Program-made: the position numbers and the translations under genes
NCBI RefSeq assembly: GCF_002163875.1
Contig: NZ_CP019333.1
Location: forward strand, 2,782,864 to 2,846,863
Origin: Gilvibacter sp. SZ-19
Lineage (GTDB): Bacteria; Bacteroidota; Bacteroidia; Flavobacteriales; Flavobacteriaceae
DNA length: 64,000 nt
Direction of reading: 5' to 3'
Shown here: piece by piece, positions 58,784-63,644 of the stretch
How the letters are laid out: the number at the start of each line of letters is the position of its first letter
How positions within the stretch are numbered: the stretch's first letter is position 1
Notes under the pieces: generated by a model
The model's database searches: none
What the model was told of the DNA's origin: nothing
What the model saw: only the letters and a program-made list of their open reading frames with translations

Positions 58784-61447
58784 ATGAGCGATCAAACTCC
58801 TTTGAATTCAGACGAATTAAACCCAGAAGATTCTCAAGATACCATCACCAAGGTAACAGGAATGTACCAGGATTGGTTCTTGGATTACGCCTCTTATGTG
58901 ATCTTAGAACGCGCGGTTCCTGCCATTGAAGATGGTTTTAAACCTGTGCAGCGTCGGATCATGCATTCCTTAAAAGATCTGGATGATGGCCGCTACAACA
59001 AAGTAGCCAATATTGTTGGGCATACCATGCAGTACCACCCGCACGGGGATGCGTCTATAGCGGATGCTATGGTACAAATAGGTCAGAAGGACCTGCTTAT
59101 TGACACGCAAGGTAACTGGGGAAACATACTTACTGGAGATAGGGCAGCGGCTTCTCGTTATATCGAGGCCAGATTGTCTAAGTTCGCTTTAGATGTTGTC
59201 TATAACCCAAAGACCACGGATTGGCAATCCTCTTACGACGGCCGAAAGAAAGAGCCGATCCACCTTCCTGTAAAATTTCCATTGCTGTTGGCCCAGGGAG
59301 CAGAAGGGATTGCAGTTGGGCTCTCAACCAAGATCATGCCGCACAACTTTGTAGAGCTTATCGATGCTTCTATAAAACACTTGCAAGGTAAACGCTTTAC
59401 GATCCTCCCAGATTTTCCAACGGGCGGAATCGCTGATTTTACAAACTATAACGACGGTTTACGCGGAGGTAAGATCCGCAGTAGAGCGCGTATCAGCCAA
59501 TACGATAAGAATACACTTGTCATTACCGAAATCCCGTTTGGTACTACGACGAGCTCGCTTATCGATTCGATCTTAAAGGCTAACGATAAAGGCAAGATCA
59601 AGATCAAGAAGATCGAAGACAACACTGCCGCAGACGTGGAAATCTTGGTGCATCTACCAAGTGGTATTTCTCCAGATAAGACCATTGATGCCTTGTATGC
59701 CTTTACCAATTGCGAGACTTCTATTTCGCCTTTAGGCTGTGTGATTGAAGACAACAAACCACTCTTTATAGGCGTCTCTGAAATGCTCAGAAGTTCAACG
59801 GACCGCACTGTAGAGCTGCTTAAAAGTGAATTGGAGATTCAATTAGGAGAATTAGAAGAGCAGTGGCATTTTGCCTCCTTGGAGCGCATCTTCATTGAAA
59901 ATCGTATTTATCGCGACATAGAGGAAGAAGAAACCTGGGATGGCGTTATCAGTGCTATCGACAAGGGGCTTAAGCCGCATATCAAACATTTGAAGCGCGC
60001 AGTTACTTCAGAGGATATTACGCGTTTGACAGAGATTCGAATTAAAAGAATTTCCAAATTTGATATAGACAAGGCTCAACAAAAGATAGAGGCCTTAGAA
60101 GAGCAGATCGCAGCGGTGAAACACCATCTTGCACATCTGATCGAATATGCGATAGATTATTTTAAGCGACTAAAGAAAACCTATGCGGCGGGCAAGGAGC
60201 GCAAAACTGAGATCCGTGTCTTTGAAGATATAGAAGCAACCAAGGTAGTTATTCGCAACACCAAACTGTACGTCAATAGAGAAGAAGGTTTTATCGGTAC
60301 GTCCTTGCGCCGAGACGAGTACGTTACCGACTGTTCTGATATAGATGACATCATCGTCTTTACCCAAGACGGTCAAATGATGGTGACCAAGGTAGACAAC
60401 AAGACCTTTGTCGGCAAAGGGATCATTCATGTCGCTGTGTTTAAAAAGAAAGACAAGCGCACTATCTACAACATGATTTATAAAGACGGGACTCGTGGAG
60501 CAACTTATGTCAAGCGATTTGCCGTTACTGCAATAACAAGAGACAAGCACTACGATCTTACTGCGGGCAATAAAGGCAGTAAAGTACTGTATTTTACAGC
60601 GAATCCCAATGGAGAAGCAGAGCTAGTTACCGTGCTTTTACGCCAATCCGGCAGTATAAAGAAACTCAAATTCGATCTGGATTTTGCCGATCAGCTGGTA
60701 AAGGGCCGCAATTCCAAAGGAAATATTGTGACCAAGTATCCTGTAAAGCGCATTGAGCTTAAGGAAAAGGGCTTGTCTACACTTAAGCCTCGTAAGATCT
60801 GGTTTGACGATACCGTACAACGCCTAAATGTAGATGGCCGTGGAGATTTCTTGGGCGATTTTAGAAGTGAAGATCGCTTGCTTATCATCAATCAGTCCGG
60901 TATGGTCAAAACGGTCATTCCAGAGATGACCTTGCATTTTGACAGCGATATGATCGTACTGGAGAAATGGGATCCGAAGAAACCGCTCACAGCTATATAC
61001 TGGGAGGGAAGCAAGGAACTCTATTACGTAAAACGCTTCTTGATAGAAAACCCAGACAAAGAAGAGAGCATAATAGGTGACCACAGTGATTCTCAATTGG
61101 AATGCATCTTTACAGACTATCGCCCGCAAGCCGAGGTTGTTTTCGCCAAGAAGCGTGGTAAGGACAGAAAAGAGAATCTAGTGATCGATCTGGAAGAGTT
61201 TATAGCGGTCAAGGGAATCAGTGCTATGGGCAACCAGCTCACCAAAGACAAGGTATTAGAGATCAACGCAATGGAACCATTGCCATATGAGGCTCCAGAA
61301 GCCTTACCAGCAGAGGATATGGAAGTTGTGGACGAACAAGACGTAAGTCCTGCTCAACAGGCCGTAGATGACTCAAAAGCTACAGATACGGCTGCGGAAG
61401 ACGCTAAAGACGATTCTGGAGAAGAAGGGCAGACTACTTTGTTCTAG
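58784..61447 (+). CDS. parC: DNA topoisomerase IV subunit A
   Basis: 887 aa, the DNA-cleaving subunit. The winged-helix breakage domain has catalytic Tyr126 in AAASRYIEAR, and the gyrase/topo IV quinolone region HPHGDASIADAMVQ has Ser91 and Asp94-like positions. A coiled coil (about 410-460) and a C-terminal beta-pinwheel follow, then an acidic Gln/Asp-rich tail. It overlaps the convergent lipoprotein gene by 14 bases. Confidence 0.93.
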   Translation: MSDQTPLNSDELNPEDSQDTITKVTGMYQDWFLDYASYVILERAVPAIEDGFKPVQRRIMHSLKDLDDGRYNKVANIVGHTMQYHPHGDASIADAMVQIGQKDLLIDTQGNWGNILTGDRAAASRYIEARLSKFALDVVYNPKTTDWQSSYDGRKKEPIHLPVKFPLLLAQGAEGIAVGLSTKIMPHNFVELIDASIKHLQGKRFTILPDFPTGGIADFTNYNDGLRGGKIRSRARISQYDKNTLVITEIPFGTTTSSLIDSILKANDKGKIKIKKIEDNTAADVEILVHLPSGISPDKTIDALYAFTNCETSISPLGCVIEDNKPLFIGVSEMLRSSTDRTVELLKSELEIQLGELEEQWHFASLERIFIENRIYRDIEEEETWDGVISAIDKGLKPHIKHLKRAVTSEDITRLTEIRIKRISKFDIDKAQQKIEALEEQIAAVKHHLAHLIEYAIDYFKRLKKTYAAGKERKTEIRVFEDIEATKVVIRNTKLYVNREEGFIGTSLRRDEYVTDCSDIDDIIVFTQDGQMMVTKVDNKTFVGKGIIHVAVFKKKDKRTIYNMIYKDGTRGATYVKRFAVTAITRDKHYDLTAGNKGSKVLYFTANPNGEAELVTVLLRQSGSIKKLKFDLDFADQLVKGRNSKGNIVTKYPVKRIELKEKGLSTLKPRKIWFDDTVQRLNVDGRGDFLGDFRSEDRLLIINQSGMVKTVIPEMTLHFDSDMIVLEKWDPKKPLTAIYWEGSKELYYVKRFLIENPDKEESIIGDHSDSQLECIFTDYRPQAEVVFAKKRGKDRKENLVIDLEEFIAVKGISAMGNQLTKDKVLEINAMEPLPYEAPEALPAEDMEVVDEQDVSPAQQAVDDSKATDTAAEDAKDDSGEEGQTTLF

Positions 61448-61847
61448 TAGTGGCTTCGCTGACTTTCGTGGCAGTGCCTTGGCGAACGTAACGTTTGCTG
61501 GCCTTATTCTTTTTAATCACCATTGCATATTCGAAGGTGTAATTACTTCCTTCTGTTTTTAAGATCTTAAAGTGGACCGGGCGTTCTTCGGCTTGATTCT
61601 TAGGACGTAAATTCTTCATCACGTACTCACAGTCGTTGATCCAACGTATACTAAAGGTATCTATCTTTTCGTCATAATAATCGATCTCGATAGTATCGTT
61701 ACGTACAAAGGTGGTCTGCTTGAGCTCCCCATTAACAAACTCCTCAAAAGTAAAGGTACCTGTTTTGAAGTCGGCACAATTGCGCTCCGGCTCCTGACAA
61801 GCAATTAGACTTAAAAATATAGTAGCGAGTAGCAGTATTTTTTTCAC
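61434..61847 (-). CDS. Predicted lipoprotein, 137 aa, GTG start
   Basis: Starts at GTG 61847 (V/M-KKILLLATIFLSLIA-Cys), a clear lipobox; longer in-frame extensions overlap the XRE gene and lack a signal. The domain has NCADFKTGTFTFEEF and a basic C-terminus with KKNKASKRYVRQG. It follows the XRE regulator by 25 bases, so both are likely on one transcript. No family recognised. Confidence 0.75.
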   Translation of the reverse strand: MKKILLLATIFLSLIACQEPERNCADFKTGTFTFEEFVNGELKQTTFVRNDTIEIDYYDEKIDTFSIRWINDCEYVMKNLRPKNQAEERPVHFKILKTEGSNYTFEYAMVIKKNKASKRYVRQGTATKVSEATTRTK

Positions 61848-61872
61848 TTTACAAATTTCGTGAAAATGCCGC

Positions 61873-62256
61873 TTAATTGGGTCGGTATTTCTTAAAACTT
61901 CCGTCTTTGTAAAAGATGATGATCTGTTCAATTGAAGAATCGTTAACCATTTGTTGCTCTTGCTTTTTCTCTGGCTCAATTTTGGTTTGTTCAATTTCAG
62001 GCGTTTCCTCTGTATAAGTAGTTGCGCCCGCTTTTGGAAATTCGCCTTTTCCATTGAGCAGCCAATAGAGTTCAACTTCCTCAAAAGACTCGACCACCTT
62101 TATCACAAAATCCAAACTGGGTTTATTTCGTCCGGAAAGTAGGTGAGAGATACTAGATCTGTTCACACCAATAGTCTCTGCAAATGCTGCCGAGCTAAGA
62201 CCGTAATAGTCCATGATCTGCTTTAAACGCTTAGAAAAGGCTTCTGTGTTTACCAT
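61873..62256 (-). CDS. XRE-family transcriptional regulator
   Basis: 127 aa. The N-terminal helix-turn-helix (about 6-62, RLKQIMDYYGLSSAAFAETIGVNRSSISHLLSGRNKP) is a standard XRE domain. After a charged linker it ends in a short segment, EQIIIFYKDGSFKKYRPN. Its promoter overlaps a TTACA-NN-TGTAA dyad, and three more dyads lie in the divergent region, so autorepression and control of the M14 carboxypeptidase gene are likely. Confidence 0.87.
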   Translation of the reverse strand: MVNTEAFSKRLKQIMDYYGLSSAAFAETIGVNRSSISHLLSGRNKPSLDFVIKVVESFEEVELYWLLNGKGEFPKAGATTYTEETPEIEQTKIEPEKKQEQQMVNDSSIEQIIIFYKDGSFKKYRPN

Positions 62257-62269
62257 TAGAACAAAGTGT

Positions 62270-62283
62270 GTTACAAATGTAAC
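62270..62283. promoter_or_regulatory. Operator dyad 1, overlapping the XRE -7 box
   Basis: GTTACAAATGTAAC, read on the minus strand as GTTACATTTGTAAC. It contains TAcaTTTG, the -7 box for the XRE gene (ATG 62256, 18 bases away), so a bound protein would block that promoter. Confidence 0.6.
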
Positions 62284-62450
62284 GCAATAAGGGTTATGAG
62301 GCTACAGTTTTAACAAAAACAGAAGTATTTAATCTAAACTAACAGTACACATAAAATATATTAAAGTATTGAAAGTAAGATATATATAGGTTACATATAC
62401 TTTAATAATTATTTTTCTCTATGATACAGTCTCACACGGCATTGATGTGT

Positions 62451-62462
62451 TTACATGTGTAA
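62451..62462. promoter_or_regulatory. Operator dyad 2
   Basis: TTACA-TG-TGTAA, perfect 5-bp arms. The second of four copies in this intergenic region. Confidence 0.55.
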
Positions 62463-62484
62463 CTAATTTCATTAAACTATTTGT

Positions 62485-62496
62485 TTACAATTGTAA
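62485..62496. promoter_or_regulatory. Operator dyad 3
   Basis: TTACA-AT-TGTAA, a perfect palindrome, 34 bases after dyad 2. Confidence 0.55.
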
Positions 62497-62508
62497 ATTA
62501 TTGATTGT

Positions 62509-62520
62509 TTACATTTGTAA
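62509..62520. promoter_or_regulatory. Operator dyad 4, overlapping the carboxypeptidase -7 box
   Basis: TTACATTTGTAA, identical to dyad 1 read on the minus strand. It embeds TAcaTTTG at 62510-62517 as a -7 box for the GTG at 62541. Confidence 0.6.
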
Positions 62521-62540
62521 CAACATAGTTTGTCTCTAAA

Positions 62541-63644
62541 GTGAACCTAACCCATCGTTACCTACCATTACGTACCATTACGCCAGTTTTAAATCGCTTA
62601 GCCGCTTCAGATCTTTTTACTTTAAAAGACCTAGGGCTCTCTGTGGAGAACAGACCCATAAAGGCTCTTAGATTTGGGCGTGGTGATTTTAAAGTACTTT
62701 GTTGGTCTCAAATGCACGGTAATGAATCGACCACCACAAAAGCATTATTAAATTACTTCTTAGCGCTCGAGTCTGATCCAAAAGCTACACAGTTATTTAA
62801 GAGTTTGACGATACTTGCGATTCCTATGCTTAACCCTGACGGTTCGGAACGTTTTACACGCGAGAATGCCCACGAGGTCGATCTGAATCGCGACGCTCAG
62901 GCCCTGACGCAGCCAGAAAGCAAGATCTTGGCAGATGTTTTCACTGCGTTTAAACCAAACCTCTGTTTGAATTTACACGGACAGCGCAGTATCTATGGCC
63001 TAACTGGGACAGAGAATCCTGCGGTTTTGTCTTTTTTGGCGCCTGCGGCCGATGCGGATAGAACAATTACCCCAGCGCGACTAAAAGCGATGGCTCTAAT
63101 TAATCGCATTACCAATAAGTTGCACGAGGATCTAGGCAAACAAATTGGCCGCTATGATGATAGCTTTAACCTAGACTGTGTAGGCGACACCTTTACTTCT
63201 AGTGGCGTGCCTACCATTTTATTCGAAGCGGGTCAATACCTCCTGGATTATCAGCGCAATAACACTGCAGCCCTTATTCAACGCGCATACAAGGTCTTGT
63301 TCGATAGTTTGCTTGTGCAAGATGAGCTGCCCCCAGCGGATAAAATATTATCGGCTTATCTGGAATTGCCGGAGAACACTGTCAACTACTGCGATATCAT
63401 AGTAAAAGGCGGTTTGCCAGAATCTTCCGGACAGCATAAAGACCTGCAGTTTCAATACCAAGAAGTTGTTGAAAACGATCGTTTGCGATTTATACCGCAG
63501 CTATTACCCAAGGAGGAAACTCCTAGGCTTTATGCCCATCGCTATATTGATGGTTCTGAACTAAGTACTTTACTCAAACGTTTGAATAGAGACAGTTGGC
63601 CCTCATTTATTGACGATTATGTACAAAAAAAGTACAGTCTTTAA
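62541..63644 (+). CDS. M14-family zinc carboxypeptidase
   Basis: 367 aa, GTG start at 62541 chosen because no earlier in-frame ATG is possible and the -7 box is 24 bases upstream. Zinc ligands His59 and Glu62 (MHGNEST) and His146 (LCLNLHGQ) are in place, with Arg117 (NRDAQ) binding substrate and Glu229 (ILFEAGQY) as general base. No signal peptide, so cytoplasmic; murein-peptide or amino-acid-ester cleavage are both possible. Confidence 0.88.
   Translation: MNLTHRYLPLRTITPVLNRLAASDLFTLKDLGLSVENRPIKALRFGRGDFKVLCWSQMHGNESTTTKALLNYFLALESDPKATQLFKSLTILAIPMLNPDGSERFTRENAHEVDLNRDAQALTQPESKILADVFTAFKPNLCLNLHGQRSIYGLTGTENPAVLSFLAPAADADRTITPARLKAMALINRITNKLHEDLGKQIGRYDDSFNLDCVGDTFTSSGVPTILFEAGQYLLDYQRNNTAALIQRAYKVLFDSLLVQDELPPADKILSAYLELPENTVNYCDIIVKGGLPESSGQHKDLQFQYQEVVENDRLRFIPQLLPKEETPRLYAHRYIDGSELSTLLKRLNRDSWPSFIDDYVQKKYSL

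Follow-up and report, generated by a model that had tools for sequence, protein, structure and literature searches.

Promoters of Flavobacteriaceae carry an unusual -7 box, TAnnTTTG, and we know of few transcription-factor operator systems described in this family. In systems that loop DNA, the preservation of helical phase has otherwise been studied by engineered insertions. The closest working precedent for the locus described here is Rco of the Bacillus plasmid pLS20, a tetrameric protein for which phase was examined by a 5-bp insertion, whereas our own evidence on phase is comparative (PMC4207663). For repressors of the BlaI/MecI/CopY type the reported operator core is TACAnnTGTA (PMC7253601). 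The -7 consensus is TAHHTTTG, 4-5 nt from the start site, in Flavobacterium johnsoniae (PMC6847099) and TAnnTTTG in F. psychrophilum (PMC9723704), and the -33 element is weak in Flavobacterium generally (PMC6847099). Here we describe a locus of Gilvibacter sp. SZ-19 at which an XRE-type protein would act as an autorepressor, covering the -7 boxes of its own promoter and of a divergent peptidase promoter and coupling the two by looping. We give this reading as a whole a probability of about 0.8.

The window analysed is a 64-kb stretch of the Gilvibacter chromosome. Two genes diverge in it from a 284-bp intergenic region: an XRE-type repressor gene (61873..62256, minus strand, 127 aa), assigned from the list of open reading frames and Pfam HTH_19, and an M14 zinc carboxypeptidase-like gene (62541..63644, plus strand, 367 aa, GTG start), assigned from Pfam Peptidase_M14 and the divergent orthologs. 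The XRE protein matched HTH_19 with E=2e-10, and HTH_19, HTH_3 and the CI-repressor HTH all scored above the cut-off; Pfam returned no family other than these HTH domains. In an alignment of 42 sequences the protein consists of an N-terminal HTH_19/HTH_3 domain, a variable linker and a conserved C-terminal beta-hairpin, IIIFYKDGSFKKY. The AlphaFold2 monomer model (pLDDT 85) places helices at residues 4-68 and strands at 112-115 and 121-124, with a low-confidence linker, and its fold matches were C.BclI, SinR and the 434 repressor (probability 1.00, with modest E-values of about 2e-3 to 1e-2). The modelled hairpin is a candidate interface for oligomerisation. The M14 protein matched Peptidase_M14 above the cut-off (E=6e-14) and contains QMHGNE, LNLHG and FEAG, which we take to be the HxxE and H zinc ligands and the catalytic E of the M14 family. 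No obvious signal peptide was seen in its sequence, and the peptidase is probably cytoplasmic. Its likeness to the murein tripeptide amidase MpaA is weak (18.9 bits against a cut-off of 157 for the NCBIfam equivalog), and this identity was rejected. Downstream of the XRE gene lies a lipoprotein-like gene (61434-61850, minus strand) with no match in Pfam or NCBIfam; its synteny is kept across much of the family, and it may be co-transcribed with the XRE gene.

The preliminary description of this DNA had reported four TTACAnnTGTAA dyads between the two genes. All four proved exact and correctly placed, at 62271-62282 (TTACAAATGTAA), 62451-62462 (TTACATGTGTAA), 62485-62496 (TTACAATTGTAA) and 62509-62520 (TTACATTTGTAA); we refer to them, as dyads 1 to 4, as boxes D, C, B and A, respectively. 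As had been stated, reading dyads 1 and 4 each towards its own gene gives one and the same sequence, TTACATTTGTAA, which contains TACATTTG. The window holds no match to TTACAnnTGTAA beyond these four, and 100 dinucleotide-preserving shuffles of it gave a mean of 0.08 matches, none of them reaching four. The possibility, raised earlier, of a motif common at random positions did not hold up in genome scans. The 3,095,863-bp chromosome contains only seven matches, namely the four at this locus, one by tsaE (2852667) and two within genes (1193935 and 1850229). A search of 18 genomes with the 15-mer TTTACAnnTGTAAAC placed nearly all matches at the XRE-M14 locus, with three elsewhere (L212, L220 and L222). 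This near confinement of the full operator to one locus indicates that the regulator is a local one.

The same counts bear on whether the dyads are chance palindromes of AT-rich intergenic DNA, generated in part by -7 boxes, TACATTTG being most of a half-dyad. The single match upstream of tsaE may be such a case. At the locus itself, however, 0.08 matches are expected per window, neither B nor C is a -7 box, and position and spacing are kept over many genera. We regard a chance origin as already refuted by this conservation and leave it a practically negligible probability.

The tsaE dyad is a lone perfect match to TTACAnnTGTAA, located 16-17 bp upstream of the gene (G000 C1:2852667-2852678; L008:8068-8079). 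It is kept in a second Gilvibacter (G001; L248:2188-2199), with TACATTTG in the direction of tsaE. It is possible that this is a second target of the XRE protein, or a mere -7 box plus a chance half-site.

Comparison of the intergenic region over relatives, which had been proposed as a check, showed the dyads kept beside XRE orthologs in Flavobacteriaceae and in other families of the order. XRE relatives were detected in 116 of 149 related genomes. Nearly all Flavobacteriaceae loci keep the XRE gene with a divergent M14 gene, and most also keep the lipoprotein-like gene behind XRE. The boxes are retained in nearly all of these orthologous loci, with A, B and C at the M14 side and D at the XRE promoter. 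Read from M14 on the XRE-sense strand, the order is A, 24 bp, B, 34-35 bp, C, an AT-rich block, D and, in most relatives, a fifth box, E. Of 397 Flavobacteriaceae genomes, 162 carried the two-dyad pattern B-N-D, and a reversed-pattern control gave 0 among the genomes listed. The emphasis of the preliminary description on dyads 1 and 4 was justified to the extent that both are conserved, but the most conserved box is B (dyad 3). Its family form is GTTTACAnnTGTAAAC, with nearly invariant flanks and a free central dinucleotide (AT, AA, TT and others). Box C, a putative auxiliary operator, occurs in roughly two thirds of the orthologs and is degenerate in others, and its central dinucleotide is variable.

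Box E is intact in most relatives (GTTTACA-AT-GgTAAAC), where it overlaps the XRE start codon, some 35 bp from D. In Gilvibacter it is an eroded fifth dyad (62245..62260) of which only the right half remains, and D is 14 bp nearer the XRE ATG. In loci of the Olleya type (L053, L056 and L077) E is shifted 11 bp from the ATG and the D-E distance is still 35 bp. Because this distance is maintained despite the shift of the start codon, box E appears to be a real operator rather than a translation signal alone. The AT-rich conserved central block (62330..62388) lies at an almost constant distance from D whatever the spacing class; it is possibly a bend or the binding site of another factor.

The preliminary description had also placed the -7 boxes of both promoters inside dyads 1 and 4, and the orthologs bear this out. 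By comparison with the TAHHTTTG consensus (PMC6847099), the predicted sigma-A -7 boxes, each TACATTTG, lie at 62274..62281 on the minus strand for XRE, within box D, and at 62510..62517 on the plus strand for M14, within box A. Of 79 orthologous D boxes, 72 have TT (XRE sense) as their central dinucleotide, and 66 of 69 A boxes have AA on the XRE sense, thus TT on the M14 sense. Only in these two boxes is the dinucleotide fixed so as to complete TACnTTTG and with it the general TAnnTTTG. Furthermore, at the other variable base of box A, read on the M14 sense, A, T or C is found and G hardly ever, which fits the -7 consensus TAHHTTTG (PMC6847099). The overlap of operator and -7 box at A and D is thus supported by two separate constraints. 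In some lineages, L030 and L070 among them, the A dyad is lost and a -7-like TATTTTTG remains. We saw no conserved -33 element at either the XRE or the M14 promoter.

The protein that binds the dyads is very likely the XRE protein itself, judging from the company the dyads keep. A conserved dyad stands at the promoter of the XRE gene across families, including loci that lack M14. In L106, L110 and L112 (other families) and L119 (Flavobacteriaceae) a dyad accompanies the XRE gene and no M14 gene is present in the fetched stretch. Conversely, the M14 loci of genomes in which XRE was not detected had no dyad, even with one mismatch allowed. In G053 (L234) and G067 (L235) the lipoprotein gene, M14 and asnC are syntenic, and XRE and all the dyads are gone; since the flanking lipoprotein gene and asnC remain, XRE and the dyads were lost together, and these natural deletions are useful controls. 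In G003 a contig end beside M14 cuts off XRE, and two dyads 24 bp apart are kept. It is this association, with dyads standing where M14 is missing and disappearing along with XRE, that points to the XRE protein as the binder. In three further loci (L115, L117 and L118) the dyad stands at XRE and the M14 start is about 900 bp away. These loci have the dyad plus at least one near-dyad before XRE, two of them with a spacing of 33-34 bp, and this is apparently another operator layout for the same regulator.

A repressor of the BlaI/MecI/CopY type was considered as the binder, since the dyads share its 10-bp core TACAnnTGTA (PMC7253601) and the Gilvibacter genome has three BlaI-family genes. However, the stretches taken at BlaI-family genes carry TTCTACAnnTGTAGAA dyads, whose flanks differ (L247, L249 and L258), no TTACAnnTGTAA occurs in the 1-kb stretches at the three Gilvibacter BlaI genes, and the dyads at our locus follow XRE. 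We rejected BlaI/CopY on the flanks and the gene association, and consider such a binder very improbable. The TTCTACAnnTGTAGAA dyads are paired, 27-28 bp apart, at the BlaI-family genes (L247:430-470, L249:437-477 and L258:525-566), of Flavobacteriaceae, and these pairs are probably BlaI operators. Bacteroidetes LexA was also rejected as the binder, as its motifs differ.

The suggestion that dyads 2 and 3 could allow cooperative looping gained support from helical phasing of the operator spacing over about 150 genomes, the loop itself being our interpretation. B-D distances fell into modes near 202, 213.5, 224 and 234 bp, with near-empty gaps between them. In 115 genomes with a B-D distance within an even window of 195-225 bp, the distances were 197-205, 211-215 and 219-225 bp, and none lay at 206-210 or 216-218 bp. 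In 107 of these 115 genomes the distance, taken modulo 10.5, was no more than a quarter turn away from 213.5, a centre that was derived from the data and favours the modal class. A second set comprised 51 loci picked by XRE homology irrespective of distance: 49 were in phase, including loci at 190, 234, 254 and 256 bp, and so were 23 of the 25 that remained when the modal 213 and 214 bp were left out. Kinship was controlled for with a tree of XRE and M14, on which, by parsimony, the length class had to change 36 times. A difference of more than 3 bp was seen in 22 of the 73 non-overlapping tip pairs. Eighteen of these 22 independent changes lay near a multiple of 10.5 where half were expected (binomial p=0.002), with some of the box assignments, including those of pairs differing by 14-16 bp, made automatically and liable to err at degenerate loci. 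Length changes of whole turns are the trace expected of a DNA loop, or of some other protein contact that depends on helical face.

The changes in length map to the interval from C to the central block, in a spacer that is poorly conserved, whereas the block keeps its distance from D to within 1-3 bp at nearly every locus. Two alternatives to a loop formed by XRE were weighed against this pattern. In the first, XRE would repress each promoter independently, with local cooperativity within each cluster and no loop, and the spacing would be kept for some other reason. The nearly fixed A-B, B-C and D-E spacings (24, 34-35 and 35 bp) could reflect such local cooperativity, and some lineages without a recognisable D keep A and B; whole-turn changes of a poorly conserved spacer are, however, left unexplained, and we consider this alternative unlikely. 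In the second, a nucleoid protein or activator bound to the central AT-rich block would bridge to A, B and C, with D as a local operator only, so that phase could be kept for contact with this other protein instead of box D. The nearly fixed distance of the block from D and the location of the phased indels between C and the block agree with such a bridge. Yet the block is AT-only with no sharp recognition sequence, no candidate protein is known, and its weak helical A/T periodicity fits a passive bend; this second alternative seems to us unlikely as well. In the spacer, AA/TT power was 1.3-1.6 times that of shuffled sequence at 9.5, 10.5 and 11.5 bp and about 1.0-1.1 times at 10 and 11 bp, a weak signal. 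Cooperative looping by XRE is favoured by the B-D modes, the in-phase genomes and the whole-turn changes, and a loop between the two clusters is likely on this comparative evidence. Because the effective in vivo helical repeat is not known, absolute distances do not reveal which operator pair closes it. A small number of genomes break the phase, with distances such as 199, 209, 217 and 219 bp, and in some lineages, among them L030, L036, L038, L040 and L070, no -7-type D box could be recognised in the 75 bp next to the start; a loop, should it exist, is thus not universal.

The mechanism that we propose is as follows. The XRE protein would be a local autorepressor whose dimers bind TTTACAnnTGTAAA dyads. 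Box D would cover the -7 box of XRE itself and box A that of M14, so that the repressor, once bound, would keep sigma-A RNA polymerase off both promoters; from this position of the operators we infer that the effect on both genes is repression. Together with A, box B and, beyond it, box C would form a high-affinity cooperative cluster at the M14 side, and a like role at the XRE side would fall, in most relatives, to box E, which lies 35 bp downstream of D. Repressor on A, B and C would then contact repressor on D (and E) through a loop of about 214 bp. The occupancies of the two promoters would be coupled, and inactivation of the repressor would release both genes together.

A literature search, with most subscription journals outside its coverage, found no description of an XRE-M14 regulon or circuit in Flavobacteria. 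We put at about even the chances that the phased spacer is a natural record of looping and that the looped XRE-M14 switch is a core, previously undescribed circuit of Flavobacteriaceae, in which the peptidase or its product perhaps acts back on the repressor. The locus offers a defined regulator, an operator, two promoters and a testable mechanism in many genera, and its operators that double as -7 boxes would let one sequence serve both repressor and sigma factor. It also provides a large natural data set on how strongly selection keeps helical phase in looping systems. If the reading is true, comparative genomics alone can reveal a DNA loop.

Among described systems, the non-canonical LexA of Bacteroidetes is likewise a local repressor in Flavobacteriaceae, but it recognises GGA-N5-TCC or CTAA-N5-TTAG motifs and governs a multi-operon regulon, and the XRE protein has only 127 aa (PMC8565304). 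Operators of BlaI/MecI/CopY share with ours the core TACAnnTGTA and the overlap with promoters (PMC7253601); these repressors are however winged-helix proteins and not XRE proteins, and their flanks in the Flavobacteriaceae genomes studied are TCTACAnnTGTAGA. Phage lambda CI at OL/OR resembles the XRE protein in its broad HTH fold, two operator clusters and autoregulation, with looping proposed in our case, but its loop spans 2.3 kb and it has a large C-terminal oligomerisation domain where the XRE protein has a C-terminal hairpin instead (PMC4207663). Rco differs in its operator sequence, in serving as a plasmid conjugation switch and in also activating its own promoter; its divergent promoters overlap, whereas those of XRE and M14 are more than 200 bp apart, and its loop is 75 bp against the roughly 214 bp proposed here (PMC4207663). 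The Rco spacer has an AT-tract bend (PMC4207663); in the XRE-M14 spacer the AA/TT periodicity is a weak signal. Like Rco, the XRE protein is an HTH repressor with its own gene at one side of divergent promoters and with several operator motifs in two clusters, between which a loop has been shown for Rco and is suggested here by helical phase (PMC4207663).
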